Assembly (NCBI GenBank): GCA_022592445.1
Contig: JABYQR010000188.1
Coordinates: 24,335-88,334, forward strand
Source of the DNA: Cytidiella melzeri
Lineage: Eukaryota; Basidiomycota; Agaricomycetes; Polyporales; Irpicaceae
DNA length: 64,000 nucleotides
Reading direction: 5' to 3'
Below are positions 6,049 to 63,300 of this stretch, piece by piece; positions within the stretch are counted from its first letter, which is position 1; every line of letters begins with the position of its first letter. The translations under genes and the position numbers were made by a program. Below the pieces are notes generated by a model, which saw only the letters and a program-made list of their open reading frames with translations, was not told the DNA's origin and ran no database searches.

Positions 6049-8366
6049 TGGAGGTTTCTTTTCACCTCCGTGGCTCGGCCGTGCTGCAGCGCCTGTGGTG
6101 TGGTTCGGGTCGGTCCCGTGCTAGCAGATGTTCCGACTCCTGCGCCCTGGATGGGGCGTCGAGTGGGTCGGTTACCCGACCGATTCGTGTGCTCTGCACG
6201 ACGCGGTGGGGGTCCTTGCGGACGTCTGGGTGGATGTCTCTGACCGAATGAGGCGGGCTGCCCTTTCTCTTTGGTCCGATGGTCATTGGGGTTTCCCCCG
6301 CTTGACCTCGAGGGGTGCTCACTTGGTTTCTGTTGGGTGCGAGCACTCTTCTGCCTCTGGAATAAACGGGCAGTCTTGTCTGCGTTTTCGATGGATAGGG
6401 CCTCCGCTAGGAGTTCCTCTATGATTGTCCCTTCGGCGGTCATCTTGCTATTTCGCATTATGGCGGTGGAGATATCTTCTGGTAGTTCCCTAAGGAACTT
6501 GCGTCGGAACTCGTAGTCACTAGGATGTTCCACCATCTGTTTGGCGCACTTGAGCATGCCTGAGTACAGCCCTGAAACGCCGTTTCCGGCTCGGTACTGT
6601 ACTCGTTCGTACCTTTCGGTCGCGAGTTGTATTGTTGCTTGATGTACGAAGCGTGTGTGAAGTTCCATAATCACTTCTGTGAACGTCCAGTCGTCTCGAT
6701 TACTGAACGGGTCCATAATCTCTGAGTTGTACCAGGTGAGAGCGTTCCCCTTGAGGGACTCTCCTAGTACCATAACTCTCGCGTAGTCATTGGATAGACC
6801 TACGAGCCTGGTGATCCAGAAGTATCTCACCAGGTTCTTCAGCCATTGATGGAAGATCTCAACGTCGTCCTCCCCGCCATACGCAGCTGGGGCTGTTGCC
6901 TTAAACTGCTTGCTTAACTGAGGCAGATCTTCCGGCTCGACCTCCATTATTTGTTTGAGTTGTCGGAGGATATACTCCGTGCTGTTGTTGTTCAGCTTCG
7001 CTGTCGCGGTAGGTGCCGCTCTGTACGCGGATACAGAGTGTGCCGTTACCGGCTGTGGTCTGTGTCGCGCTGCTGGGGCAGACACGAAGTATCGAGGGTT
7101 GACCCCTCTAGTAGGTATGTTGGGAGGGAGGGTCCTCGCCCTTCTCCTTCATGACGTGGGGTCTGGGGGAGGACCCCTTGGGATCCCTGCGCGCGGGTGC
7201 GAGTCGGAGCTTTCGCTACTACCGTCATCTCCATCTCTTGGGAAATTGGATGTACTGATTCGCTGCTGACTTCTCGTCGAGCGCGTGTAACGTTGGATGG
7301 TATATGTGTGGGGCGACCTTTCCTTTGGTGTTGGGCCATCTGCCGCGGTCGCGTTTCCGCTCGCTGCTAGACCAGCCTCTCTAAGTCGAGTGGCTTGGTC
7401 TTTTCCTGCACGAGCAGGCATTGCCCTATCTTCAGTCATCGTTCAACGAGCGTGTTCGTCGGAATTGGTGTACCATGCCTCTTCGTCGCTCGTAGCGATT
7501 ACTTCGGCACCCGTCATCTCTGGGTTTTCGTCTAATTTTGGGGTAGGGCCCTTTGAGGGTACCTCTACTGGTGTTGGTTGCCCAACGTGTTCTTTGGCCG
7601 CCTTGCGGCGGCTTACTTCGTCGTTGAGCGCGTCCATATCGAACGCTTCGAAGACGTTGTGTAGACCGCGTATGAGCTCGTGGTTCCAGTCTTCAACCCG
7701 CTGGAACCTTTCCTCCTGAGCTCTTCGCTCGTGTCTCAACTCTCTGTATGTGGTCCTGCTTTTCTTCAGACCTTCGTAAGTTTGCAGCATCGCATTAGCG
7801 AGTTCTGGGTCTAACAGGCCTTTAGCCCTTCGTTCTTCTCGAACTGATTCAATTTGGCTTTTCGCCGATACTTGTGGGTCACCTTTCGGTGTTACAAGGT
7901 CCCTACGTCTGTCTACGGTGCTACTGAAGGGGCTCTTCAGCGGGGGGCAAGTTGCCCCGTCCCCACTGAGAGGTTCTTGCGCTTGCGCGCGTGGGGCCTT
8001 CAGCTGTTGCTGTGCCTCCATTGCGTCCGTGAGGACTCCGGTGACTGCTGAGGGTTTCCCCTCGTATGCAGCCACCTTCGTGGTGGTGGTCTTGTTCGAA
8101 GAAGATTGGGTGGGCACTTTCTCGCTTCGCCGCCCATCTCGGACTTCGGTGATCGTCCGACCCACCGACTTGGGCTCGTCAGGGTCGCCCTTTCGGGCCT
8201 GCGATGGATCTTCTTCGGCCTCGTGCTCGCTCTTGAGCATGATGGCCACGTTTTTGGCGTCGGCCTCACTGGTCATGTGACTGACAGCTGATATGGACTG
8301 GCCGTGAGCCGTTTGCCGCAAATTGGAGGTTTTGCACGATTTTGGGTTCTTCTTCGCGTCCGACAT
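5952..8366 (-). pseudogene. gag: gypsy gag, interrupted by two TGA codons
   Basis: One frame runs from an ATG at 8366 (MSDAKKNPKS...) through a charged N-terminal region to TGA at 7443-7445, continues in the same frame to TGA at 7149-7151, and then through the capsid-like core to 5952. The core holds the retrotransposon gag pattern (QWLKNLVRYFW, GNALTWY, LHTRFVHQA, ELPEDI). In the related copy at 44.2 kb the first stop position reads CAA instead of TGA. After about 6060 the frame must shift to reach the zinc knuckle. The N-terminal extension is Ser/Thr/Pro-rich and has no recognised domain. Confidence 0.85.
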
Positions 8367-8412
8367 CCGGGGTCTTCAGGGTATGTCCGGTGTGTCGGGA
8401 TCTGGTATTTTA

Positions 8413-8790
8413 TGGGCGCGTAGATAGCTTTGTGTTGTAGGGAATTGTGGAGTAGAGTGTGATTGGAGTAGAATGTATGTAGGTAGAATTCGGGTACTTA
8501 AAAAAGTGTAAGGGGTGTCTTCTTGGATGCACACAAGGTAAGTATGACCGATATGTATTCGGAACCTACGTGTGTACAAGATAAAAAGATGTCCTCTAAA
8601 TCTACCAGATCTCAGTCCTAAATACTGAGATCTGCTACTGCGTAGTACTACTATATGCAGTATGCTATTTTCTCACGATGGGCGCTGGCCCACTATCTAA
8701 TCAGTACGAGTAAAAGGCCAGATCCACTGATCTGGCCACAGGATGCTTGCGCATCAGGTAGTGCTTGCGCACATGTATCAAACCCTAACA
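8413..8790 (-). repeat. 5' LTR of the gypsy element
   Basis: About 378 bp are shared with 45229-45591, starting on the minus strand with TGTTAGGGTTTG and ending near ACGCGCCCA. The outer edge at 8790 is sharp because copia gag resumes at 8791. The inner edge is inferred from a TG..CA rule and is less certain. The second copy lacks 16 bp near 8746-8761. No TGG-type tRNA primer site is obvious after the LTR. Confidence 0.75.
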
Positions 8791-39156: not shown

Positions 39157-41754
39157 ATGGGCAATGTGCGTGGCAAGCACGGCGGCGCACTTTCATCCAA
39201 GGTCAATATACGTATATTGCATCGATGGGGACCGTCGGTTCTAAAGCAGAGATGCACATTGAATCTAACAGGCGATGCAGAGGCGCGTAAGGATGCAGAG
39301 ATACAGGCAAGACTAGCTGGTAAGTTCTCCACAAGCTTATTAGCTGAGACTTACCACTCTCAATCATGGAGGCTTGAGTACAGAGCAACGCGAGCTGTTG
39401 CATGGGGCGGACTTTGCCAATAACAATCCAATGGAAGTCGCCACATATCAATGATGAACATCCCCGCTGGCGATGAAGCCACGGTCGAGTCAGGCGCAGG
39501 AGGGGAGCTTGAAATCTGCCAGGATATATTGGATGAGCTACAAGTAATGCCGTGAGTGTTGTCTTCTACCAGTGTCAGTTTGTATACTCATCAGTTCAGC
39601 AAACAATATGATCCGCGTACACGTCGAGATCGCGTACATCTTCAGAATGTCGCATGGAACGAGCAAATGGACACTCTCGTCGATGCATATCTGCTATGGC
39701 GATCAAAGTCAGCAGCTCCTGGTCATTCATCCTGCAACGAGGGAAACACAATCGTTGTCAACACGGTTGACTTCTTCTGTAAGGATCATGTCATCAACCT
39801 GTTTACCAGCTCTGATTTTGTTGTAGATCTGTCCACTCTGTCAGTCGCACTCCAACCTGATAACGGCTATCCCACCGTTTTATTCGCTAGGCGGGGCTAC
39901 CTTGCAACTGCTCCACGAAATCCCACCACCGCCATTGCATTTCAAGTTCTTGAGGCTTACCGGCAGTTACACAGGGTATGTCCCAAACTCAGCATCTACG
40001 CACAGGTCCAAGCATTATGCCACCTACACGGAGTAAGGCTTCCATGCTTTCAGAGTGCAATGATAGACTGACAAGCTATCTGACCCCTAGCAAACATTCA
40101 GTTGTCCTTTTGTTGACCAATTCGCGTCGACGTACGATGTCTATCTCGAAATCCTGCACCGTGTTGACACGCGCGTAAACGTTCAATTACAAAGGGACTC
40201 GCCAGAGTGGAGGATCTGTAACGTCTGCCCTCCCTGTATGTACAAAATTGCCAATGAAGAGAACCTTGGGCTCTCTCTACTATGCTCCATGGACGGGAAT
40301 AGCTCCCTGAAGCTTGTTGACTCAAGTGTGCGTTACAGAAGTGTGCATCAGGACGAACAAGTTCATCGGATCAAGGACCTATTTCTACCTCCCGATGCTG
40401 TTGATTGTTTCAAGGATGAGGTCGCATCGTCTGGCTCCGGGAAGGTACATCCATTATAGATTGTATGACATCGAAGTTGAGATGTTTCATAGGCACCAGC
40501 GGTACAAGATGAAGACATGGCTGATACCCAACTTTCCACAGCTGACTGTGTTGAGAAGTGGCGCGCAGCTGCACACAAAGAGCGCAAGCACGCATTTGCT
40601 TTGTTCCACACCACCGGAGTCTTTGCTTCATTTTGTCGGCATGGCCACCCGTTGGTATTCTGCGACATGATCCGAAGCGGCGAACTGTATGTATGTTTAC
40701 CTTCTCTGCAGCTGTCCCTTGCTAACTGTTGGCAATAGACAAAAGTACACACTCGCAGTCATCGACCAACTGATGACTGTATTTGGGGACAACATTGGGC
40801 CAGCGTATGATGTGGGGTGCGACACTTGGAGAACAATCTTGAATTGCTCGCTGCAAAAACGTGCGCTAGATCAGCAGCTGCACTTGATTGTGCTAGCGTT
40901 CCACGGCCATCAGCACAATTGACTTTGCCAACTTGACTGGCACCCCATGTATATCAAGGGTGCGGGAAAGGAAGACTTTGAAGGATGTGAACGAGCATTC
41001 AAAGATTCAAACATGCTTGCCTCTGGTACCCGGCTTGCAACCGCATTCCATCAACACCAGGCAATAGAGCAGCATTGGATGTTTTGCAGCCTTGACAAGC
41101 ACGCGGATTCAGATTAGTTTGCCACCATTCACTGTCACACGATCTCATGATGGTGCCAACGTAGGGAACTTCATCTATCAAAACTACTGACAGGCTCTCG
41201 GCATCATTCGCAACGATAGCGCTGAATTGAAGGTCATATCTGCCAAGTTGGGAACAACACCGGCCGACTACAAGCGCTATCTCACGGAGGAAAAAGACTA
41301 CCTCGAACGCCTCAAGTCTGAGCTGGAAGAAGTTTCTCTTTGGTTAGAATACCTAGACTCGCTTCAAGAACTTGATGAGGCACTGTGAGTACCCTTTTGC
41401 ATGCACTGTATTTGTACTCATTGCGTCTTCAACAGGCACCGCGCAAATACCTCGAGTGTTGAGCATGAGAGACTCAACATCAAAATTGCTGCCAAGCGCA
41501 TCCGTGGAGCTGCAATCACCGCCGTGAAGAATCGCTATCGCAATGCATGGAAGAAACTGGAAGATGCGGAGGCACATATGGTAGCCCTTGAGGAGAGGCT
41601 GGCCATTGAGGAACGCTGGACGCTGGCAGATCCAGCCTACCAAGAAGCAATGTCTGAGATGACAATGCGTAGGTATTGCTTGGCCCTGGATAAGCTTGAA
41701 CGTCTCGTCGTACAGCGCCTCCTGGAGTTTTCCAAGCTGAGCATGGGTGGTTAA
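39157..41754 (+). pseudogene. KDZ-family transposase, broken by TGA codons
   Basis: It starts MGNVRGKHGGALSSK with NIRILHRWGPSV, as KDZ (Kyakuja-Dileera-Zisupton) proteins often do, followed by YDPRTRRDRVHLQNVAWNEQ, WRICNVCPPCMYKI (Cys cluster), MDGNSSLKLVDSS and FLPPDAVDCFKDEV. The catalytic region has CVEKWRAAAHKERKHAFALF, FCRHGHPLVFCDMIRSGEL, FGDNIGPAYDVGC, LAFHGHQHN, then TGA at 40920-40922 where Arg is expected, then LCQLDWHPMYIKGAGKEDFE and TRLATAFHQHQAIEQHW. A second TGA at 41188-41190 again replaces an expected Arg (NY-stop-QALGIIRND). The C-terminus is a coiled coil ending at 41754. Introns are present. Both stops fit CGA to TGA. Without them the gene would look nearly complete. Confidence 0.85.
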
Positions 41755-44104: not shown

Positions 44105-45591
44105 CAGACCTGGTTAGACCATCTCTGGATTTTGTCGGCCCTGTCATTGGGCCGCCTGACGCGGTTGTGTTCCCGCTTGCTGCTAGGCCAGCCTCTCTAA
44201 GTCGAGTAGCTTGGTCCTTCCCTGCGCGAGCAGGTATTGCCCTCTCCTCAGTCATTGTTTGACAAGCGTGTTCGTCTGGATCGGTGTACCACGCCTCTTC
44301 GTTGCTCGTGGCAATTACTCTGGCACCCATTGTCTCTGGGTTTTCGTCTGTCTTTGTAGTAGGGCCCTTCGAGGGTACCTCTACTAGTGTTGGTTGCCCA
44401 ACATGTTCTTTGGCTGCCTTGCGGTGGCTTACCTCGTCGTCAAGCGCGTTCATGTCGAACGCTTCAAAGATGTTGTGGAGACCGCGTATTAGGTTGTGGT
44501 TCCAGTCCTCAACCCGCTGGAACCTTTCCTCCTGTTCTCTTTGTTTGTGCCTCAACTCTCTGTATGCGGTGCTGCTCTTCTTCAGACCTTTGTAAGTTTG
44601 CAGCATTGTGTTAGCGAGTTCTGGGTCTAACGGGCCTTCAGCCCTTTGTTCTTCTCAAACTGGTTCAATTTGGCTTTTCGCCGATTTTAATGGGTCACCT
44701 TTCAGTGTTACAATGTCCCTACGTCTGTCTACGGTGCTACTGAAAGGGCTCTTCAGTGGAGGGCGAGTTGCCTCGTCCCCACTGGGAGGTTCTTGCGCTT
44801 GCGTGTGTGGGGCTTTCAGCTGTTGCTGTGCCTCCATTGCATCCGTGAGGACTCCGGTGACTGCTGAGGGTTTCCCCTCGTGTGCAGCCACCTTCAAAGT
44901 GATGGTCTTGGTCGAAGAAGATTGGGTGGGCACGTTTTTGCCTCGCCGCCCATCTCGGACTTTGGTGAATGTCCGACCCACCGACTTGGGTTCGTCAGGG
45001 TTGCCCTTTCAGGCCTGCGAGGGATCTTCTTTGGCCTCGTGCTTGCTCTTGAGCATGATGGCCACGTTTTTGGCGTCGGCCTCGCTGGTCATGTGACTGA
45101 CAGCTGATATGGATTGGCCGTGAGCCGTTTGCCGCGAATTGGAGGTTTCTCGTGATTTTGGATGTTTCTTAGCGTCTGACATCCGGGATCTTCTGGATGT
45201 GTCCGGGGTGTCGGGATCTGGGTTTTGTTGGGCGCGTAGATAATTTTTTGGCGTTGTAGGGTGCTGTAGAGTAGAGTGGGATTGGAATAGAATGTAGGTA
45301 GGTAGAATTCGGGTACTTAAAAAAGTGTAAGGATGTTCTTTCTGAATGCACACAAGGTAAGTATGACCAATATGTATTCGGAACCTACGTGTGTACAAGA
45401 TAAAAAGATGCTCTCTAAATCTACCAGATCTCAGTCCTAAATACTGAGATCTGCTACTGCGTAGTACTACTATATACGGTATGCTATTTTCCCACAATGG
45501 GCACTGGCCCACTATCTAATCAATACGAGTAAAAGGCCAGATCTACTGATCTGGCCACAGGATGCTTGCGCACATGTACCAAACCCTAACA
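44105..45591 (-). mobile_element. truncated second copy of the gypsy element
   Basis: LTR (45591-45229) and the first ~1.1 kb of gag match 8790-7340. The gag frame starts near 45183 (MSDAKKHPKSRETS) and is broken by TGA at 45009-45011 and 44655-44657; at both sites the other copy has CGA. It then continues (LQTYKGLKKSSTAYRELRHK) to about 44150, where similarity ends. The rest of gag and all of pol are absent. No full LTR pair is present, so this is a 5' fragment. Confidence 0.85.
45229..45591 (-). repeat. LTR of the truncated gypsy copy
   Basis: Matches 8413-8790 throughout, minus 16 bp, and ends at TGTTAGGGTTTG on the minus strand (45591). Confidence 0.75.
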
Positions 45592-46417: not shown

Positions 46418-46669
46418 TCATTCCCTGATCCACACTTCATGTACAACCTTGCGGTGCTCCGTTAGGTTGTTGCTCCAGATCAAGATGGCATCTAGATAGA
46501 CAGCCACCTTGCCCTCGGCAACGAGGTCGGCGAAGATGTTGTCCATCAGAGCTTGGAAGGTAGCGGGTGAGTTCGTGAGACCGAAGAACATGACTTTAGG
46601 TTCGAAAAGTCCCTGGTTGGTAACGAATGCCGCTTTGTACTCATCTCCTTCTTTGATTCGGCTGATGGT
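46418..46669 (-). pseudogene. gypsy reverse transcriptase fragment
   Basis: The minus-strand frame reads ISRIKEGDEYKAAFVTNQGL, FEPKVMFFGLTNSPATFQAL and AVYLDAILIWSNNLTEHRKV, which is the RT palm region. The catalytic YLDD motif is changed to YLDA, so even this fragment could not be active. It stops at 46418 and has no upstream continuation. Confidence 0.85.
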
Positions 46670-47236
46670 TCAGCCACAATATATGACAAATGAGTGGCAG
46701 CTATGTACCATATCTCCCTAATTTGAGTAGTATATAGCGTCGGCTATTGACAATACATGGTACCACATTTGCATGGCTGCTAACTTTGTTCCTGTTTATA
46801 CATTCAGCGAAAAATGAGGCCAAACCAACAATGCTCTTGTATTTAAAGGAGTAGTAGATACACAGGAGCTACACAATTGGTTGTCATTGTTGTGGGTGCA
46901 ACCCACATGGAAGCAATGGGGAATGACCTCATGTGGGCGGACCTACCCCCATGTATAGCAGTGTCATTTGGGTATGTGCTCAGATGTTATGCTACGCCTT
47001 TTACATACTAGCCCATATATATAGCAGAGGGTGTTTAGGATACATAACACGATATCTGCATGTGTACCAATTGCTCCCTATGATATATTCAGTGTGAAAT
47101 GCATTTGAACCAAGGTTCATTTTGCATTCATGGGAGCGCAATATACGCGGGAGCTGCACAATTGGTTGTCATTGTGTTGATAAGATCTATACCGTAGTTG
47201 AAAGAGGAGTTCGGAGTCTATCGGATGGTGATTAGT
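46670..47236. other. AT-rich spacer with a direct repeat
   Basis: No gene is seen. GGAGCTRCACAATTGGTTGT occurs at 46865 and 47150, each followed by CATTGT. It lies just after the 3' end of the CxC2-KDZ gene. Confidence 0.5.
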
Positions 47237-50200
47237 CTACCTTGTTTGAACATGATACAGCTGTATGTAAGAGTCAAATGTTTTGCATCTTTCGTAGAAC
47301 TTGTGCCACATCTCAGTTTGCTTGTATGCATAGCACTCATGCCCTGGTCTCTGTGCAGTTTCAGCTGCTTTGGCCCGATCCTTCCAAAGATTCTCTTGAT
47401 GCTTGAACCAATTCTTTGTCATGAGCATATCTGTAGCACATTGCTGTACCTCTTCACTCCAACGGTCTCGATGCTGTTTGGCACGCAGCCACATGATTCT
47501 ATGAACTTGACAAAGAAAAATCAGACAAAGTGTCAAAAGGTAGCTTTGTTACTTACATTCTTGCAGCCATTTACTGCTATTTTCCTTTCTTCCATCTTTG
47601 ATCAGCCAAAACCAAGGCATCATGTCTCTGCGTTCACCTGTTTGATTCTCCTCTGTGATGTCTTTGTTTACAGTGAGGTGTTTGTCCTTCAATTCCTCAT
47701 ACAGACTGAATTTGTCTGAGGCTAGTTGTACCAGTGCTGTCCGAGCTATGCGGTAAGACAGAACTGCCTTGTTGATCTGAACAAGGAAGTGTCATCTTGG
47801 CTTTTATCCGGGTGTTGCGAATTGATCCCATACCTTGTCCTGCACAAGCTTGATGTTTCCCCACAGACGTGTTCTACCCGTGGAAGAGGTTGCATGAGGC
47901 AACTGAGCCCGATAAATCGATGCCTTGTATGCCAGACCATCCCGGAGTCTTTCGAGAGCATCATTTGCCTGACCTTCTCGAAGAGACAATTCATACTTAG
48001 CCCATTTCTGCATCTGAAGGCCCTTGCAAGCATCAACACCAATCAACGAGGGCAGAAAAAGCCTATCTGCTACAGCAGATAAATCGCCGTCATCATCTAG
48101 CTCATCATCATCATCATCATCATCCTCTAGATCCTCCCAATCTGATGCAAAAACACCACGATGTCCAGTATCTTCGGTCGAACTGCGTTGAGCGGCCTCA
48201 TCTTCAGCATCAGAGGATGCAGAGCTTGATTCTGCGTCACTGAGAAGCTGATTGTCTGCATCTGGAATATCGCCTTCAAAAACATAACACATATTGTGGA
48301 CGGGAAGTTGCAGCATCTCCTGAATCTTTGTCCAGTGCTCTGTTGGTATGACCTGTTGAGCTTCAGCCATACACTTGGCAATGTTGGCTGAGAGCTTGAT
48401 GTCTTCTTTTCTCAGTTTGTCTACCTGAGATTGAATCAAGAAGCCTTTTTCCAGACGCCTCTTTTCCCAGGCATGTATGTGTCTGAAGTGATAATTATTA
48501 AGCAACAGTCAGTTGGATGTCAAATCATGTACATGTACATATGCTTACTGCTTTTGCTGTAGTCGGATGGCGTCATCAAGCCATGCAATGATAGTAGTTT
48601 GCTCAATCCTGTTTGTCTTCTCCATCAGTTGATTCTTCAAATCAGTTTGTGTTGGAGCTAGTCATGGTTAGGAAATCATAGATCAAGTGAAGCAACATAA
48701 GTACCTTTATCCATGGACACCTCAAATATCCTCAAGTGCTCGCCTCTCATGGTCAAAGCATCTCTTTCTTGCTGTTTCCAACTCTCTCGATCCATGTCTG
48801 GGGGTAGTGCTTTGCTTAGATCGTCAAATGCGCTCTCTGCCTGTTGAAGCCCTGTCAATGCGCCCTTCAGCCTTTTGAGCAGCGCTCCAACTGAAGAGTA
48901 GAATTGTAAGTAAGGGAATATCATTGTATCTGATGGAACGTACTGCATGAAACTAGCTTTCGCCAATTATGATCCCGGATCTGATGATCCAGTGCTTCTC
49001 TTCGATGTACAAAAGACATTGACCGCATAGATTGGACAATTCCCTTCAATGGTCCCCAATTGGTCTCCATGAGTTCTCCATCCAACTGGCCAGCACCACG
49101 GATATAGTTCAACGTATGTGTGACATAACACTGCTGAACGTGTGCCGAGAGGTCGAACTTGCCTACTGCGTATTCTATTCCATTTGTGGGAATCGAATCC
49201 AGCAGAGAAAGACCCTTGTTGGCTGCCAGCCTATCTTGAAAGCGTTTTCGCCACTGGCAGCAAACATCATAAATGATGAGAAGCGACTGGAGCTCCTGAC
49301 TGTTGAAACTGCTCCCTTTGCAGATGCTGTAGTCCATATACATCTGCCTGCAAAAATACCTGGTCAGAGCTCATGCAAGGAAGACAAAGTCAAAAAATGT
49401 GTGCTTCGGAGAAAGCAGTGCTTGTATACATATGCTATAGCATGTTGCAGATACTGTATGTTTTTAGCGAAAGCGCAAGACATATAAAAATACATAGGTG
49501 CATACATGCATTGCTTGAACACAAAACACGAGAAAAATAAATTTCAAGGCTGACATGCAAAAACAACATGTATGCATGCCTTGAGCCTCACGAGTGTAGT
49601 GAGCTCATGCAAAGCTGGACACATATATACCATACATAATGGAACTTCACATGTAGATGGCAGTTTGTATGCAAAGCTTGCCATATGAATGAAGTTGCAC
49701 TGATGCATAACCTCTCTGCATTACCAATGTTATGCGCTTTATCTATGACTAGCGTTAGCAAGGCCGGCAAGCGGCAAGTACAATTCCTGAAGATTGAATG
49801 ATGGTATTACTTTTTGAGCCAGATTTGTAAGTAAACTTGGTGCTGGTAGCAGCCTGAGCATATAATTTTGTTAGGAATGGCTTCTTCAATGAGTAATGTA
49901 TAGCAAGTGGGTAGTTTGTCTTCACTGGAGCACACAATCATTCATGAAAGAAGAGGGACTGTGCTGTATTGTTTGAAGTGCAACAATGGGTGTGGGCACA
50001 GAATTAAAACAAGTTTGTGGAGTAGAGCATGGAGATAAAAATTGTTTGACACGCATCTTCTTCTTAATGGTGTTGAATTATATTAAATAATCTAAATCAA
50101 ACTTGGTAAACTGCAGGAACAGGGTTACAAGTGATTATGTTATTGATAGCAAATTGAATAATAAATCATATAGCGTGAAATAGTCAATTGCACCGGTGAC

Positions 50201-50545
50201 TTTGTTACTAAAAAGAACCTCAGTAAACAACTCTGCTCCTGGTAAGGATCTTGCCAAGCCATCTGGTCATGAATATTGACTGTATTATGGGCATTTGCTA
50301 TTGGTGACACCTTTGATAGGCAGCTTGATCTGGGATAAAGTGACTGTACTACAATTGATAAGTTTGGTTGCAGGAAAAGGAGCCATACATTGATGAAGGT
50401 AGTCACCAGTGGTAGCAAAAGGCTTCATCTATCTTGTCATTAATCTTGTGCAGTGTTCACTGCTGCTTCTAGAAAATAACTCTTTTCAAGAATGAAGGGC
50501 TTGAGGGTGTCTTATTGGATCAATTGCTAGAACATGTTACATGTG

Positions 50546-51801
50546 TCCTGTTGATGTCTGCGCTGCCTCACCCCCATCAGAGCTGCCACAGGCTGTGTTC
50601 TGATAGTAACTCCTGCTTATAGAGCAACGAGTGGTTGTGAAACTGTGCGGAAGAGTCAAAGGCAGTGCTCTATGCTGATGCAACCACGTCCTGTTGATGT
50701 CTGAACTGCCTCAGCCCCATTTGGACTGCCACAGGCTATTTTCTGATTGTAACCCCTCCTTAGAGAGCAACTAGTGGTTGTGAAACTGTGTGGAAGAATC
50801 CAAGGCAGTGCTCTATGCTGATGCAACCAGTCTTGTTGATGTCTGAACTGCCTCAGCCCCATTAGTGTCACAGATTTTCAATGTTTCTACAAGACTTGCC
50901 TTACCAGGCAACGGTATTATTGGGAATATTTAAGCGCTTGTCAAGCGCTTATCCAGCACTTATCCGGTGTCTATTTAGGCGCTTATCCAGCGCTTATCTG
51001 GCGCTTATCAGGTGCCTATTCCGGCGCTTATTCTCAGTGCCTATCAATTGATGCGCTGATGTGCTCCTTTCCTTATATGTGTATCACATGATAGAACTCT
51101 CTGAAACCTTGTGGAACTTGCTGGAACTATGATGTCATAGTATAGAACATTCCATTAGATGATGTCATAGTTCATAGAACCTTCTGGAAAAGTCTAGCCT
51201 TGTCTCAGAACAAGCTAGAACAAGTCTAGCCTTGGAGCTGGGTCATGGGATCAGGTCATGGGGACAATTGCTATTGGTTGATTATTGAAGTGGCACCACT
51301 AGGGCATAGGGCATGCTTAGTAAGGTAGATTACTTCGCTTACTCATGTAGGTATTAGGGGTCTTAGGGTAGTACCTGGGGTCCTCCCCTTCATGTATATA
51401 TAGAGGCACTCCTGAGGGCATATCCCCTCAGTCTTATCCACTCTGTTGAACCAGGACTACTCAGTACCCACCAGTACTTCGCTCACCACCACTCTAACTC
51501 TCTATCACACACTATCTCCCCAAGTTTATCAACTTATCTGGTGAGTAGTAACCTTACTGTTACAATTAGGACTGCCACAGGCTATGTTCTGATTGTAACT
51601 GTGGTTGTGAAACTGTGTGGAAGCATCAAAGGCAGTGCTCTATGCTGATGCAACCATGTCCTGCTGATGTCTGAACTGCCTTACCCCCATTGAAACTGCC
51701 ACAGGCTATGTTCTGATTGTAACCCCTCCTTAGAGAGCAAATAACAGTTGCCAAACTTTGTGGAACAATCAGATGCTGTACTTACTCCTGATGCAGCCAC
51801 A
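50546..51801 (+). repeat. ~142-bp tandem repeat array, four copies
   Basis: Units start at 50546, 50689, 50831 and about 51659 with TCYTGYTGATGTCTG and share CTGCCACAGGCTRTGTTCTG and GGCAGTGCTCTATGCTGATG. The third unit is split by the solo LTR at 50866-51564; removing it restores the unit. Confidence 0.85.
50866..51564 (+). mobile_element. solo LTR with 5-bp target-site duplication
   Basis: The 699-bp segment begins TGTCACAG and ends CTGTTACA, and ATTAG flanks it on both sides (50861-50865 and 51565-51569). It carries TATATATAG at about 51392 and repeats of GCGCTTATCC-like words at 50930-51045. No internal retroelement sequence is present, so it fits LTR-LTR recombination. Confidence 0.88.
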
Positions 51802-54086
51802 AATTTACGTTGTCCAACAATGTGGGGGTTGAGAATTTGTAGCTGGCTTCCAAAGTACTGGTAATTATTGCTCAGAGCCAATACTCTTTGTCTTCTAATT
51901 CTATTCCTTGTTCAGAGAGCAAGCAATGTGTCATATGTGCTGCACATTTATATGACCGGAGTGCTGCACATTTATATGACCGGAATGTGACATCATTTGC
52001 CGGCAGGAGTGGAGTTTAAATCTGAGTCTGGATGACTTTTTTCAGTAGACTGGCCATAACTTGCTCAATTCCACTTCAATTGACAGGATATTTGTACCAG
52101 GATGTTGCTACAAGATAGGTCTATCCAATGGTGTATTATATGCACAGATTTGCTCCCATATGCAGTCTGTTAAAATCAAAAACTGCAGTTTGATTGCAAA
52201 AGTGATCTGATACAAAGTAATTAAGGGCTGATAACAAGGCCAGTGTGATGCCATCAGCTGTATTCATTGGTTTGTTATTGAGGCTGTTACTGTCTGTATT
52301 CTGCTATCAAATTCCCACACTTTGGGGGACAAAAAGGTCACATCTGAAAAGGCATCAATGTGCTGGAGCACACTGGAACAATTCTTCTTCATTCTTCAGG
52401 AATTGTAACAAATGGCACAGATAAATCACAGAACTCTTGGTACCCTCCCTTGTAGTTCTGACATTGCACAAAGCAGATAACTCACCGCTCTCCTCCCTTG
52501 ACAAAGTCAACAATCGAGCCTGGCACAATACAGGCGTGTCTTGCACAGCATGCTGCTCCAATACCAGTACAATCTTTATGCTGATTTTTTCCTTTGTCCT
52601 GGGTGTTGTTAACGCTTCGATGCTGATGGCATGTTGATTTCTTAGAGAGAAAAATGAGTAATTGCATGCAACAAATCAGCTTTAACATTGAACACTTGCC
52701 TGAGGGTACTCTGTGGCTGTATTCAAATGCTTCTCGTATGCACTCCGCTCTGTCATATATCCTTCTCCATTGGAGAGCGGAACATCAAGACTGGAAGACT
52801 TTGAAGCTGCTTTAAGGTGGTCGGCTGAAAAGAATCCATCTGCAGCAATTGACCTCCGATACAGCCACCTGCAGCATAGTGAGGTCCTGAGTTTAAAGAG
52901 ATGGTCATTTGGAAATCGTACGAGCGGGAGTCTGTCTTCCACCCAGCTGGCATATTGATACCAGGCTGGGGACAAGCTGCACAAAACAGAGCTAGCTCCC
53001 CCTCCTTAAGACTACTGTTGCTGTAGCTCACTCCAAACCATTTCCGTATTTGAAGATACCGCCAGCATCGCGATACTCTTAAAAACTCTCGGTATCGATC
53101 CTAAGAATACAGCAGTGAGTAAAGCTCAGTCAGAGCACACCAAGTCCTACCGGCACATCAGATGTAAAAGCGTTGTCTGTTCTACGCTGCAGCTTCGACC
53201 AAAATGCATTTCCGCTAGTCTTACATGCAGTTGATTCAAGCATATAGTCGGAGAACCTTGAATGAGAAGACAGTCTTGATTTTCTCATACGACGCTGGGA
53301 AAAGCTTTGCTTCGAGAAGCTGCTGCACTTAGGACGCGGCATTCCTGCAAGTGCAAAAGTGAAACGTGTGCTCTGCAATCCCAGAAGAGTCGACCACAAG
53401 AATCTGAGCATGTGTCTCTTCTGCGACAAATCCTCTATCTCCCTGTTCATCAACTTCCATGAGATTGCTTTCTTCTTCGTCTGCCCAAGCTCCAACTTCC
53501 TCACTGACAGCTTCTATGCAGTGCTCTCCATGATGCCCTAAGTACCGTATATGACCCATTTCAGCAAGCGTAACCTTCCGAAATGTCTTATCTGAGTATT
53601 GTTGCAGTAGGTGGGTGTGAAGACGCTGGTGTGTCCGGAGTAAACACTGCCAACAGGAAAGGTGAAAGTCTTCGCAGTCCAAGCAACGATATTGCCCATT
53701 CAGGCCACAACTACAGACCATGGAGTTTGCGGGCCTTCTAGTTTGTACAATATCTCTAGGAATGTTTCTTTCCAAGGGAGCCAGTCATGAATGAACTCAT
53801 GTTGAGTCTGGGAGACAAGTCTTGTGAACGACAATTTCAATTGTACTCTTTCGGGTGCCCATACCTTTGCCTTCTTGCCTGATGCATTGCCTTCAAGCTG
53901 TTCATCCATTATACAATCATCTTGTAAAGCTGCGTGTTTGATATTCTCGGGAGATCTTGTTGTTTTCTTCTGGCTTGTTTTACGCTTTGATCTGGCTGAG
54001 GAAGCAATAGGTAGTGCACGAATTTTTCTTCTTGCACCTCTTGAAACCTCTGTGATGACGTAGTCCTTGACCTGTCTGAGAGGCAT

Positions 54087-54884: not shown

Positions 54885-56405
54885 TCAAAGAATGCCTTTC
54901 ATCCACACTTCCTTATGGCCCCTCTGCACGGGACCAAGGTTCATGTCATTGATGACAGTCACGGTGGCCTGACACTGAGCGCCGCTGGGCAATTTGCCTT
55001 TGCACCCAAATAAGATGCTGCCATCCTGGTTCACCTTCCTACGACTCCAGCACCAGAGCGACATGCAGGAAGAGCACTGATAAGACAAGGTATGACCCCA
55101 GGGCCGAACCATATTCTCTGTCCAAGCATAGCGAATGGGATCCTTACCCGGCATGAACCATACAATATTGTTGTGCAAGCCGACGCTGAAGCATTGGTCC
55201 AGCAACTGCTCAAGGTCAGCTTCAGAGTTCCGTCCCTGCCTGACAGCGGCATGGGCATAACCCTGGACAAAAGGAAAGATCTCGTATGCCAACAGCATCT
55301 GAGAAGTGAACGTGAAGCAGTTCTTGATGTTGAACCTGCATGGGGAGTCAATAGACTGAAACGAGTTTAGATGTATGGTGCTTACGTTGAGACTGCCGTT
55401 TTCAAATCATGTGAAGACTCCTCGTGATGCAAAATTGCACCACACGCCAGCAGAAACATGGTAATCTCTTTCTTCTTGAGCGGGTCCAAGAGGTGCTTGA
55501 GAATGTGGGAAAAGAACTACTAAACGTTAGCGAATGACACTACTTTGCAATGTCTCACATACATCATTGACCGTGACAGCACCATTCGGCTTGAAGAACA
55601 GATCTCCACGAGTTTCATCAGAGTGAGTGCAAATGAAGACCATAATAATGTTGTAGCTAGGTGAAGGAGTTAGAACAACATCTATGTGACAGGTAAGCTG
55701 CTGTTGCTTACTCAGCTCCTCGTTGACCAAGCTCCGCCATGTCTGCTACCTCGTTGTCAATGGTGCGGTCCCCTGTAACATCCATGATATGCTCGAGATA
55801 TATCACTCGGCTCTCATCCCGAAACGAGGAGTACCACGGGCGGACCATCTCGGACAGAAGGTGTCCAGGCCCACCTCTTGGCAACAGACCCACCAGGTAG
55901 ATGTTGATAATGCACAAACGTGGGAGACGGCAGTGGATTCTAGGGGGAATGAAGGACTGCGGGGTGATGGCCAGGCCATTTGGGAACATGGCGCAACCAT
56001 CCTCGTTGTAAAGCCCCTGTAACCATGTCAGATAAAAGTTAAGAGTGCTATTGAGGTGTGTTTACGCACCCTGTAGGTCATTGGGACCGTGTTCCTACGC
56101 AGTTCACAAGGGGGGCAGGTAAAACTGCATCGGCCCATCACCTCCGAAGGGACAGAGTCCAGCTGAGGTGCGCAGCGAACACAAACGCCACGGCCGCACT
56201 TGCACTGCACGAGCTGTCCACCATTCATACAGACACAACACCACTGTGAGTTGCACATAGGTTAGTTGGTTCTCCTTGACATGGTGCCGCACTCACCGAG
56301 TCTTCGTTCCCATTCTCATTGTTGGAGTGCCACCGCGCCACCTAACGCCTTACGAGGTGCTTTACCGCCAGTAGTCTTCTTTGGGGTCTGTCGTGTTCTT
56401 GCCAT
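54885..56405 (-). CDS. histone H3 tail-like plus PHD-like zinc finger protein
   Basis: The ATG at 56403-56405 opens a 29-codon frame whose first residues after Met, ARTRQTPKKTTGGKAPRKAL, match 15 of 20 positions of the canonical H3 tail. Exons 2-6 (56243-56070, 56016-55712, 55656-55563, 55516-55386, 55335-54885) join in phase to 384 residues. They start WCCVCMNGGQLVQCKCGRGV with CVRC and FTCPPC (PHD-like zinc site), then an unknown domain (GLYNEDGCAMFPNGLAITPQ, YLVGLLPRGGPGHLLSEMV, VFICTHSDETRGDLFF, FFSHILKHLLDPLKKKEITM) and a C-terminal Cys-containing part ending VWMKGIL. With the strong donor at 56296 exon 1 is 109 bp and out of phase by one base; a weaker donor (GCG/GTGGCA) would keep phase. 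So either an unusual splice or a one-base change lies between tail and finger. Function unknown; a chromatin role is inference. Confidence 0.65.
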
Positions 56406-58058: not shown

Positions 58059-58744
58059 ATGTCCTCAGCACACCATTCTGATTCCGACCTGGAGAGCAAA
58101 AACCGTCGGCATTACAACGACGAGTCTTCAGAAGGCGGCGCTCCGTCCAATGAAGAGGACGTTGAGAGTGTTGTGTGGCCCAGCGTGAAGTGGTGCCGCC
58201 CTGTGTTCCTGGAAACTTTGTCCAACGCGTATCCACGCTACCATGAGGGCAAAGGCAAGAAGAAGACCAGGGTGGTCTCAGAAACCGCCGAGCTGCTTCG
58301 GGAAATTGCAACAAAGCATAAGCTTCATGTGCCTGAGCTGCTTGAGACCGTGAGTGTTCCTCCCACACGATTCCAATACCAGCTTCTCACCTATTTTGTA
58401 TTCCGTCTGTAGAAAGTCCGCAACTGGTTGAATAACGAGAAGGCGAAACGCGCCCGGGCCCAAGGCGTTTTGTCTGTTCCAAGGGTGAAGAACACCAAGC
58501 ACGAGGACGGAGGACGAAAGCTCACTAAGCGTGATGCTGTTGCAAAGGTGTTCAAGGAGCCAATTGCGCAGATCATGCGGGACATGAGGGATGCTGAGAG
58601 GAAGAAGGCCATCAAAGGCAAAGGCAGGGCTATGGAGAAAGGTCCGCTGATACGCCTGGAAATCGCTGGACGTGCAACAGGCCCAAAGGCGAGCACATTC
58701 GCATGGACTAGCAGCAGCCCTTGGTTCTGGCAAGACTGGTATTG
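58059..58744 (+). CDS. N-terminal part of an unknown helical protein
   Basis: Exon 1 (58059-58349) reads MSSAHHSDSDLESKNRRHYN, then WPSVKWCRPVFLETLSNAYP and TAELLREIATKHKLHVPELL. An intron with GTGAGT and TAG leads to exon 2 at 58413: KVRNWLNNEKAKRARAQGVL, with a WLNN-basic helix reminiscent of the recognition helix of homeodomain-like proteins, then KLTKRDAVAKVFKEPIAQIM. The frame then runs into the pentameric satellite at about 58745, where real coding probably ends or is interrupted. The likely continuation is at 60385 (YRQKAITEFMAGMTEEQREQ). I do not recognise a named family; DNA binding is a guess from the helix. Confidence 0.6.
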
Positions 58745-59345
58745 CATCGCCTCGCTTTGCTTTGCTTTCCATTGCATCGCTTCGCCTTGCTTTGCTTGGC
58801 ACCGCTTCATTTCGCCTTGCTTCGCATTGGGTCGCTTTGCTTCCCTTCGCTTCGCGTCCCCTCGCCTTGCATTCCCTTCGCGTTGCCTCGCGTCACGTCG
58901 CATTATCTCGCGTTGCCTCGCCCTGCCTTGCATTGCATTGCATTGCATTCCCTCCGCTTCGCTTCGCCTCGCGCCGCCTTGCCTTGCATGTTGCTTCGCG
59001 TTGCGTCGCGCCGCCTTGCTTCGCCTCGCGTTATCTCGCGCTGCCTCGCGTTGCCTTGCATTGCATTCCCTCCGCTTCGTTTCGCCTCGCGCCGCCTCGC
59101 ATTGCCTCGCCTTGCATGTTGCTTCGCGTCGCGTCGCGCCGCCTTGCTTCGCCTCGCGTTATCTCGCGCTGCCTCGCGATTGCCTCGCTTCTCCTCCACT
59201 TTGCTTGGCCTCGCGTCGCCTTGCATTGCCTCGCTTCGCATTGCCTCGCGTCGCATCGTGCCGCCTTGCTTTGCCTCGCGCCGCCTCGCGTTGCATTCCC
59301 TCTGCTTTGGTTCGCATGGCTTTGCATTGCATGGCTTCACTTGCC
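58745..59345 (+). repeat. pentameric satellite (TYGCN)n
   Basis: About 600 bp built from 5-bp words such as TTGCC, TCGCC, TTGCT, TCGCT, TTGCA and TCGCG in register. Because 5 is not a multiple of 3 and no stop word occurs, all three plus frames and several minus frames stay open, giving false long ORFs rich in Cys, Phe, Ala, Ser and Leu. TCGC and TTGC words differ by one CpG transition. Confidence 0.9.
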
Positions 59346-60384
59346 GCATATTGCATCCTTGTAGTCCCTCGCACTCAAGCTCATAGCTGTTGGAACCCCC
59401 CGGCCCCCTTTTCCACTCCCTCGGATTCCGCAGCCTGTTCTCTTTGCAGAGCGGCTAAAGGCAGTGCCCCATCGCTCCTGTAACATGTTTCGCGTTTGTC
59501 CCTCGTTTCATCGCGCAATGCCCCTTTCCTTGCCTTGCTCTCGCATGGCTTCAATTTGCTATAGCCCCTATTGCCTTTTACTTATATACGCTGTGTCTGT
59601 ACTTTGCTTAGCTCAGAATACGACACCCCCGCGGTTTTCCCCTCAAAGTTGCCCCTGCCACTTTTCCCTTGCTTCTTGAGCAACTCCGCAGTGCGTATCT
59701 CTCACCCTGCGCCACTTTCTCCTTCATTGCGACCCCCTTTTGTGTTCCTACTGCGTTTATTTCACTGCGTTACTTACTGCGCTGCGTTTCTCCTTCACTG
59801 CGACCCCCTTTTACAGCCGCCCCTTCTCTTTCTCAAGGCTACTGCAATTTAGACTGCGTTTATTCTGTGTTCCCATTGCGTTTCCTACTGTGTTTGCCAT
59901 GGTGTTTTGCGTTATCCTCTTGCAATGAGCCAGCGCAGTCCTTTCTCTCGCACTTTACCACACCACTTCCTCTCCCCCCTCTTGTGTATCGCATGCCAAT
60001 TGCTCCCCTTTCTTCACCACTGCGTTGCCCCTAGCTCTATCACTTTTATACCACTTTCTTTTGCAACACTTAAGTTCTATTGCCTCTTTGCATTGCATTG
60101 CCTTGCTTGGTTTTACTTTACATCTTTCTACCCGGAACTTTTCCCAGCTACCCAAACAAACCACAGCGCTTCTGGCCTCGCACTCCGAGCCCTGCAAATG
60201 CATCACCGCTCGCCCGAGTCTAGGTGCAGCCTAGGACTCTTGGACCCACTCGCAACCTACATTCACGCATACCCTCAACCCCTACTTACACATGTAATCG
60301 CCTCTCGCGAGGTCAGGTGTGTTTGTGCCCGGTCCCTTTGTGGCCGGGGGGTATGTTAGTGTCTCACCGCGCGAGGGAGAGAAA
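59346..60384. other. spacer after the satellite
   Basis: About 1 kb, C/T-rich with many CACTGCG- and CCCCTTT-like words that may be decayed satellite. Frames here show no family pattern. It may be part of a very long intron between the two halves of the unknown gene, or true intergenic DNA. Confidence 0.4.
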
Positions 60385-63300
60385 CGCAAGGGAGAGGGCA
60401 AGAATGAGGACGAGAACAAGGATGAGGATGAAGATGGGGACAAGAGCGAGGGCGAAAGCAAGAACAAGGGTGACAGTGAGGGTGAGGGCAAGGGCAAGGG
60501 CGGGTCTGGTACACCTGCCCGCCTGCTACTTGGGTATCGACAAAAGGCCATCACGGAGTTCATGGCCGGAATGACTGAGGAGCAACGGGAACAGGCCCAG
60601 GCTTTTCAAACAAAGGTCAACAGCGAGGGCCGAACTGAACCTCTTACTTCGTACGTCCTGTATTTTTATTGCAAGCCTGTAGGCTCTAGACTGAAGTTGG
60701 AATGTTGTTGCCAGTTCCGAAATTGACACTTTGGCAAAGAAAGTGCGGAATTTCGCATTGGCAACAAAGCGCGTGTATGGAGCCCACGTTGTTGTCATGG
60801 CGGCCTTCCGGACAGAGGACGAAGACATTGGAGCCACTCAGTGAGTACAGCACTATCAGCGTGTCCATCCACTCATCTTGCTCTTCTGTAGGTATGAGGT
60901 GCCTCTACCATTTGGCCAACCTTTCGTTTTGGACCCGTCGTTTCAAAGAGCCTATAGCAAGTTCAAAATCTTTGGGCAATCTTCACTTGGTATGCAGTAT
61001 AGACCGACGTTCAATCTCATTTGCTCACTTGCTACACATTAGCTGTTGATGAAAACCTTTGGCTCGAAAACAACAAGGATAAAATCCATCGTGCGGTTGA
61101 TGCAGATGAGACCGGTTTGAAATGGTACTTCCCCACAAACAAAGCCGGCTGGCCTGCCGTTCCTGACCAGTGGCCTGAGGGAATGTCATTGGTAGATATG
61201 AAGGATGTTGTCCGATGTTTCCTCACAATCCGATATCATAAGTCTCTCATACATGCTGTTCAACAGGTATCTAAATTATATCTGCTGTTTCTTAGGCCTG
61301 GTCTCCGGAAATCCCAATGCGAGGGTGCCGTTTACCGAGATTGTTGCAGATCGGAATGCCTACATTCACCCCAGGTTTCTACCTGCCAAGATCCATTTCT
61401 GCGACCCATCCAAAATGAAAGAAATTGACATCAACCGCATGGTATCTCACTGGAGGAGCAGAGTGGAGCGTAACCGCATGGCTTTTGATTTCCAGACGGT
61501 CCGCGCAAAGGACTTGAGATACAATTCGCTAGGAGATGGGCCCCAGGAAGCAAACGGCTCAGAATTTATCGCTCCTTTTGCAGAGGACCCCGAGGCAGAC
61601 GGTAGCGACAAAGAGTCCAATGACAACTCTCTTGCCATCCCCGCTCCAAAAAAGCAGCAACCAGCTGCTGCTGGTCGGAGAGTGGCAGAAGTAAGCGGTG
61701 TTCTTATGCTTTAAGACAACTACTCACACCCATGATCAGTCCTCCAAGCGTAGTGCCCCGCCTGCCGAGAAACAGAAGGCGTCAAGTTTGGAAGTCGAGC
61801 GGACGCCTCAGGAAAGCATGAGCCACACAAGCAGGCCTGCTGAGAAGCGAAAAACTCAAGCAGACCCCGGTCCTAGCCAGAAGAAACAAAAGGCGGCCAA
61901 GCAGCCTGAAAAAGATGGCACAGCTCGAGCAAAGGAGCAACATACTGCTTCAATAGAGCCCGAAGATGCCATCTTCAAGGCACCTCAGTAAGTTCCCAAT
62001 GCACTACAAACTCTGACAAACCAGCTCACTCGTTTTAGCCCTGACTCTCCTGCCAGTGTGGCAAAAGAGAATTGTTTGGACTGGCTTGGGCGCCTCAGCA
62101 CCGAAGTCGATTGGCAGGTCCTTGTAGACTATGTCAAAAATACTCCGGTCAGTATTTTTAGTTGGTTCAACAGCAGGTTTTCTGATGTTGACCTCAGTCC
62201 GATGCCCCTCATGGCGCCGACTCCGGCGACTATCGGTACAATGGTCCGTCAGTACCTTGGGGCTGGGGCTGGCCTCACCATTGCCTCAGTCCCAAGTTTC
62301 ACACCAAGGATCATATGGAGTACCAGGTGGCTGTGACGTATGCTCAGGGCCAAAAGCTAACACTGCCGGGCACTCGTCGGGAGAAGATGGACATTCTTCT
62401 GAAGGTTGGGTTGCCTCTTCGAGACATTGCTCGGGCTGCATTTGCTGAGCCAAATAGCAATGACCCACTCAAGTTTTCTCACTTCACTCGCGAGCATTTC
62501 GATCATTGGCGCGGAATCATTGCCAAGCACAAGGAAAACGTTGAGCAGAGTCTAGCCGCGTGGAGGGCCAACCCATTCTCGAGGACGTTGCAGAGTTCTG
62601 CCACAATACCAGAGCCTGCTGTGGCGGGATCATCGTCAGTTTCATCCAGTTTCTCAATCACTCCAGTTGCTGACCTTGAAGCAAAAGACAACTTCCCACA
62701 GACAAGCCTGCTCATCGGAGCGCCGCTGAAGGGAGCCGTCAAGATACCACTCCAGCGGCAGAGGCAGGAAAATCTCCAGCTGCGGCAGCTGAAGGTCTTG
62801 AACGCAGATCTGTGGAGAAAGATAGGGACCCCCAGGAGAACAGCAGTACTGCTCACATTGACCCTGCTCTGCTGCAGTAAGTTGTCTGCATTGCGTGACC
62901 TGTCATGCTCCAGCTCATTTGCCTTTGATAGGTTGGATCAATCTAAGCATCTCACACCGCAACCGGTGCTTGCTGATAGTCCTGCCAGCATACCCAAAGA
63001 GAATCGCTTGAACTGGCTCAGAGGGTTCAGCGCCGACTCCGCTTGGCAAAGTCTCGTGAGCTATGTCGAAGATACTCCGGTTAGTGTTGCACATTAATTC
63101 TAATCAACCATGGACCTACTGACCTTGACCTCAGCTTCATGCTCCTCATCCCGCAGACCGCGTCCGCAAACGCTACATTGGTCCGGTGGCACCTTGGGAT
63201 TGGAGATGGCCTAATGGTCGTCTCTCAGACACATTCCACACTCAAGATAGCGAAGTGTATCAAGCGGCTGTGACATACGCCCGAGGCCACAGCTTGACGG

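Follow-up and report, generated by a model that had tools for sequence, protein, structure and literature searches.

The window analysed here (the whole stretch of 64,000 nucleotides from Cytidiella melzeri) carries a copy of a gene for an undescribed agaricomycete protein family, in which a mimic of the histone H3 tail is joined to a PHD/ADD-type zinc finger, a peptidase-like domain of the caspase/CHAT fold and a zinc ribbon. No published description of such a family was found in a literature search that covered few subscription papers. By the measure of sequence comparison, selection maintains this tail, which, like that of H3, begins right after a Met.

The gene in the window

An ATG at 56405 on the reverse strand opens the H3-like tail MARTRQTPKKTTGGKAPRKAL, which is identical to H3 residues 1-20 at 15 of 20 positions. 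The second-best 20-mer in six frames of the whole 64 kb reaches only 7 matches of 20, which rules out a chance origin. The scan confirms all that the first-pass annotation had read in this tail, i.e. the 15 of 20 match, the presence of K9, K14 and K18, and the replacement of K4 by Arg and of R8 by Lys. A true H3 variant is ruled out, as the window protein is without a histone fold: the histone family PF00125 has no match in 10 family members at E up to 10, the 408-residue window protein gives none with E allowed up to 1, and the precomputed Pfam annotation is empty for the family members from the protein search. Recent capture of a local H3 exon is unsupported by the third codon positions of the tail. 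The window copy shares 9, 8 and 6 of 22 of these with the H3 genes on contigs C117, C50 and C347, respectively, and the copy on contig C217 shares 6, 7 and 5 of 22. Beyond the tail, a 384-residue open body is encoded on the reverse strand by five exons with GT..AG introns between them.

56343..56405, reverse strand: Met and H3-like tail ARTRQTPKKTTGGKAPRKAL, 15 of 20 against H3 1-20, retained in 63 of 65 body homologues
56334..56405, reverse strand: exon 1 in the event of splicing at the weak in-frame donor GCG^GTGGCA
between 56333 and 56332, reverse strand: junction of a 32-bp deletion, from comparison with the C298 copy
56316..56318, reverse strand: TGA that ends the tail frame absent any upstream donor
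56244..56296, reverse strand: intron at the donor and acceptor of the sister-copy models (53 nt there), out of frame in the window copy
56070..56243, reverse strand: exon 2, PHD/ADD-type zinc finger
55712..56016, reverse strand: exon 3, beginning of the caspase-like domain
55563..55656, reverse strand: exon 4, THSDETRGD with the presumed catalytic His (His in 58 of 59 aligned members)
55386..55516, reverse strand: exon 5, LLACG with the presumed catalytic Cys (Cys in 55 of 57 aligned members)
54885..55335, reverse strand: exon 6, remainder of the caspase-like domain, then zinc ribbon and stop codon

From the ATG at 56405 the tail frame of the window copy reads MARTRQTPKKTTGGKAPRKALGG. The first-pass annotation had flagged a frame problem between tail and finger, and the problem is real: compared with the sister copy on contig C298, 32 bp are deleted. 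In that copy the tail-to-finger stretch is GGAVAEPTPPEGEAWHSNDENGNKDS, with a GTGAGT donor on offer (the remaining copies are similar), and TGGC flanks both ends of the stretch that the window copy has lost. Because these 32 bp are missing, the usual donor leaves the tail out of frame with the finger; with the sister-type donor (intron 56296-56244) the tail frame meets the TGA at 56318-56316 first, and only the weak donor after 56334 (GCG^GTGGCA) holds tail and body in one frame. The window copy is probably a damaged family member, and its tail-body fusion is putative and unproven, dependent on that weak donor.

Eight Cys residues with PHD spacing are invariant across nine finger sequences. 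A finger profile compared with solved structures places PHD/ADD fingers closest (CHD4 at 2.6e-6, and also TRIM33, PHF21A, AIRE and ATRX), and in the members scanned single finger sequences fall below the Pfam cut-offs. The finger likely belongs to the H3-reading PHD/ADD class. The earlier view of a non-histone protein that joins an H3-like tail to a PHD-type finger is supported. Several relatives of the finger prefer H3 with unmodified K4.

Behind the finger, an AlphaFold model predicts a caspase/CHAT-like fold (caspase-hemoglobinase) followed by a zinc ribbon. The His/Cys dyad is nearly invariant (58 of 59 and 55 of 57 aligned members) and sits after model strands 223-230 and 269-275, at the ends of two core strands. 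We are highly confident in the caspase-like fold as predicted by the model. The earlier account of the body as a PHD-like finger without a histone fold was right as far as it went and missed the caspase-like domain and the zinc ribbon, as well as the KDZ transposon surroundings of the gene. The Pfam families CHAT and C14 gave no match at E up to 10 in the 10 of 65 members scanned, and both are absent from the 25 Pfam families listed for 40 members. In the AlphaFold model the tail is disordered and is not docked onto the finger; a run without an alignment gave no usable model (pLDDT 31.8).

Selection on the tail across mushroom-forming fungi

Three protein searches starting from Cytidiella were made and 99 proteins were fetched, of which 65 match a body profile that is free of the tail and was trained on 40 of the same 65 proteins. 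By name the homologues comprise 53 from Pisolithus, five from Cytidiella, two from Coprinopsis sp. MPI-PUGE-AT-0042 (P0060 and P0065), one each from Irpex rosettiformis (P0006), Trametopsis cervina (P0007) and Gyrodon lividus (P0009), and two further proteins. A stricter profile, again without the tail, was made from four Polyporales bodies (with rows taken out of joint alignment A3 and a database size of 1e6) and finds 61 of the 99 proteins at E below 1e-3; its values are 1.9e-45 for Pisolithus P0010, 3.9e-12 for Gyrodon P0009, and 5.9e-12 and 0.0024 for Coprinopsis P0060 and P0065.

An H3-like 20-mer with 11-17 matches of 20 is present in 63 of the 65 body homologues, directly after a Met in 61 and at the very N-terminus in 34, in a set of candidates gathered via shared 5-mers that include tail words, such that tail-less relatives may be under-sampled. 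The first-pass annotation had named homologues lacking the tail as evidence that would speak against it; the opposite was seen, and the two exceptions (P0004 and P0055) both look 5'-incomplete. Coprinopsis P0060, Irpex P0006 and Pisolithus P0010 are among the members that seem to be complete. In 27 protein models the tail is preceded by an N-terminal extension of 12-332 residues. These extensions look like translated 5' leader read-through, and in P0003 the 20 residues preceding the Met equal the translation of the 5' DNA. Ten long models gave no Pfam match at E up to 0.01, bar one match below the cut-off in P0059. No relative of the family was found in a scan of viral contigs.

The bodies are often just 22-30% identical, and residues 1-10 form the best-conserved stretch. 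Among 18 representatives with pairwise identity below 70%, taken from alignment A3 (40 of the 65 members), the share of the majority residue is 0.89 for positions 1-10 and 0.81 for positions 1-18, as against 0.51 for the caspase core, 0.42 for the finger and 0.35 for the linker. Counted over all 63 tails, which include many near-duplicates and represent 40 distinct tails, the H3 residue is kept at A1 (60), R2 (60), T3 (61), K4 (59), Q5 (60), T6 (55), A7 (59), R8 (44), K9 (62), A15 (60), R17 (59) and L20 (58), and is mostly lost at S10 (kept in 7), K14 (25), K18 (3) and Q19 (4). The emphasis that the first-pass annotation laid on K14 and K18 thus holds for the window copy and fails for the family. 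Between window-type and C217-type tails (22 codons), pS is 0.75 and pN 0.18, with silent sites saturated; the corresponding values are 0.45 and 0.22 for the finger and 0.67 and 0.24 for exon 6. That the tail is real and under selection is, in our judgement, close to certain. The family thereby serves as a natural experiment on the H3 positions that are important for binders, with A1-Q5, A7, K9 and R17 kept and S10, K14 and K18 released.

Other proteins with H3-like tails were also seen. A second, unrelated set consists of P0088 (an MMETSP transcript), P0091 and P0098, in which MARTKQTARKSTGGKAPR is followed by a von Willebrand A domain; P0088 and P0091 are 36% identical and P0091 and P0098 29%. 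P0066 (245 aa) contains four H3-tail-like stretches, one at its start and three internal. H3-like tail starts without a detected histone fold occur in P0071, which has an FHA domain, in P0074, from the ascomycete Nemania, and in P0092, P0096 and P0097.

Sister copies and the KDZ transposon setting

In the assembly (49.7 Mb, 731 contigs) the pattern MART(K/R)QT occurs at 10 places, compared with one for a reversed control. Three of the 10 (on C50, C117 and C347) open with MARTKQTARKSTGGK and are followed by the H3 core on those contigs; the other seven are copies of the H3-tail family. None of the eight copies followed in the assembly has an intact read-through. Four spliced sisters run into early stops, at 143 (C217), 176 (C298), 203 (C386) and 207 (C289) letters with the stop sign counted, and the C162 copy has a 1.8-kb insertion within exon 3. 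The finger exon of the C171 copy carries an insertion and its tail pattern is absent, only the tail and finger exons remain of the C102 copy, and C71 holds only a 3' piece of the gene. The annotated protein P0001 (421 residues) spans tail and body at 91% identity, with part of the finger absent from the model; it is encoded on a 7.1-kb contig that was not found in the 731-contig assembly.

Downstream of the H3-tail gene, at a distance of 0.8 kb, a KDZ-type transposase gene follows in the same orientation; at the other side, 1.65 kb separate the start of the H3-tail gene from a divergent gene. The features of this surrounding are as follows.

47237..54086 (outer limits approximate), reverse strand: broken KDZ-type transposase gene, downstream of the H3-tail gene
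53329-53775, reverse strand: CxC2-like stretch of the KDZ gene (PF18803, E 0.0014, below the cut-off)
52476-52643 and 48966-49349, reverse strand: KDZ domain pieces (PF18758, E 1.6e-6 and 1.3e-22)
49749..52408, no strand assigned: inserted segment of about 2.66 kb that splits the KDZ gene and is missing in the C289 copy
46662..46720, no strand assigned: sharp left end of the repeated element, with ten other loci at 94-97%, seven of them with the same start base
58059..62417 (approximate), forward strand: divergent gene(s) of the repeated unit, interrupted at 58648-60366

Stretches of this unit recur on C386, C298, C171, C289, C162 and C102 at 88-98% identity, with about 11 kb shared in the case of C386 and C298. 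The divergent gene or genes gave no Pfam match reaching its cut-off. Left end, KDZ piece and H3-tail gene follow in order only on C99 and C162, on a single contig each. For eight of the ten other loci that share the left end, no H3-tail gene was detected on the contig. There must also be KDZ elements that lack the gene or are truncated. The left end on C298 has the wrong orientation relative to the H3-tail copy there, and the KDZ pieces of the window have no match in 9.9 kb around the diverged C217 copy. The right end of the element lies beyond the contig of the window; a seemingly sharp right end on C386 was rejected, as the break is private to C386 and not common to other copies. No target-site duplication of the element was found, nor did the inverted repeats examined yield a convincing terminal pair. 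On balance we consider it likely that the H3-tail gene is the cargo of a KDZ-type element in the Cytidiella genome, and its place beside a transposon suggests mobile DNA imitating chromatin.

Several further features of the window were recorded. Pieces of a second KDZ transposase lie on the other strand at 40274-41081 (forward strand) and correspond to C99:64608-65415. The interruption at 58648-60366 is about 1.7 kb rich in cttcgc-like repeats and is absent from the C386, C298, C171 and C102 copies. Self comparison reveals a direct repeat of about 1.43 kb (7331-8760 and 44147-45578, 89% identical). Near the left end of the element, 46858-47175 shows stepwise overlapping matches to other loci, a pattern suggestive of subterminal tandem repeats that vary in copy number.

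Possible roles of the tail and known systems

Our preferred reading, which we hold tentatively, is that of a selected bait, an H3 tail offered to H3-tail-binding proteins that gates the peptidase-like domain through the protein's own finger. Of its parts, the bait function of the tail is probable. Removal of the Met would free an A1-R2-T3-K4...K9 end and present it to binders and modifiers of the H3 N-terminus, among which the protein's own finger would be the nearest H3-tail-binding partner. The tail may then act as a latch, in that its seat in the finger, within one molecule or across two, would hold the peptidase-like domain off until the latch is opened by nucleosomal H3 or by a chromatin enzyme that captures or modifies the tail; this part is rather doubtful. 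The element carrying the gene, a KDZ-type transposon, would be helped to blunt or sense H3-based silencing, an anti-silencing role that we regard as possible. We also consider it unlikely, though conceivable, that the protein is a chromatin sensor spread by transposons over three orders, in which the own finger would hold the tail, nucleosomal H3 or silencing enzymes would switch the peptidase-like domain, and the replacement of S10 would spare the K9 region a phosphorylation switch.

The proposal of the first-pass annotation that the tail baits or blocks readers, or is read by its own finger, has gained in plausibility because the tail is conserved and the finger is kin to PHD/ADD fingers. 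The latch and bait reading is weakened because AlphaFold does not dock the tail on the finger. We also count against the preferred reading the Arg at K4 in the window type, the tail-body frame of the window copy, broken unless the weak donor is used, the lack of an intact read-through in all eight copies followed, the absence of CHAT, C14 and histone Pfam matches in 10 members (E up to 10), and both the left-end loci without an H3-tail gene and the lack of KDZ pieces near the C217 copy.

Enzymes and readers of H3K4 and H3K9 contact residues A1-K9. The retention of A1-K9 in the family, with S10, K14 and K18 mostly lost, would also suit a decoy that acts in trans without a latch, where the tail sequesters or attracts H3K4/K9 enzymes and readers of the host (H3K9 methyltransferase, HP1, LSD1-type) and so weakens or steers silencing, and the finger and caspase-like domain serve for targeting or clearance. 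The KDZ setting, the multicopy state and the many Pisolithus copies (53 of 65 proteins) are consistent with it; however, it does not account for the PHD/ADD finger and the intact His/Cys pair that accompany the tail, and we judge it somewhat improbable.

It is quite improbable that the protein is a host immune receptor whose H3 tail baits a foreign or mobile-element factor attacking H3 tails and whose CHAT-like domain triggers cell death. The part of PMC10197012 drawn on here places CHAT proteases in fungal cell death and NLR-like receptors, and the Pisolithus expansion is large, but the gene adjoins a transposase gene and decays in the Cytidiella genome, and no NLR or repeat domain was found in the members scanned. 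An H3 tail and a peptidase-like fold on one chain could denote a putative peptidase that would clip H3, with its own tail as pseudo-substrate or propeptide; we hold this to be very doubtful, as the conserved tail pattern tracks the residues used by readers and writers, not a cleavage site. That the tail is a functionless piece of H3 captured by a transposon is scarcely credible, for although the cited part of PMC6710886 documents fungal DNA transposons that captured and amplified H3, and although the copies in the Cytidiella genome are decaying, the tail is conserved over diverged bodies with saturated silent sites and a position-specific pattern, and it is present alone, whereas the hAT cases published there are mostly 71-100-residue pieces of the third H3 exon.

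In the sensor reading, the family would represent natural self-recognition of a histone-tail copy. A family that joins an H3 N-terminus to an H3-reader-type finger and a caspase-like fold, and that occurs beside a transposase gene, would be a new route by which mobile DNA, or a defence directed at it, acts on chromatin.

The histone mimics known so far are mainly short motifs, carried by viral proteins and by a small number of chromatin enzymes (influenza NS1, G9a, SARS-CoV-2 ORF8). The present tails likewise place H3 sequence inside a non-histone protein and differ in that the mimic is about 20 residues long, lies at the extreme N-terminus, is family-wide and comes with a reader-type finger and a caspase-like fold. 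Fungal and bacterial CHAT/caspase peptidases such as SAVED-CHAT (8tl0) differ from the 10 members scanned, in which neither the CHAT nor the C14 profile of Pfam matches at E up to 10, and the partner domains here are an H3 tail, a PHD finger and a zinc ribbon.

The hAT-captured H3 of Dothideomycetes (PMC6710886) is likewise H3-derived sequence in a fungal DNA transposon; there an H3 transcript was captured, the transposon superfamily is a different one, and the part of the paper cited here describes no fusion to a reader or enzyme-like domain. In the cited part of PMC12730594, the TET/JBP-carrying elements of Polyporales are of the Kyakuja type, with CA..TG ends, 7-bp duplications and no TIR. 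The element here is alike in pairing a KDZ-type transposase with a chromatin-related cargo gene in Polyporales, but its cargo is not TET/JBP, and no match was obtained between its ends and the pattern of CA..TG and 7-bp duplication given in that part.

PDB 3a1b is an engineered fusion of an H3 tail with the ADD domain of DNMT3A, and its score was not above that of H3 alone. In the portion of the DNMT3A literature drawn on here, the ADD finger blocks the enzyme domain of the same chain until H3K4me0 binds. An H3-reading finger that gates an enzyme on its own chain is the likeness to the latch suggested here; DNMT3A, in contrast, has no H3 tail of its own, and the enzyme-like part of the present family is caspase-like.
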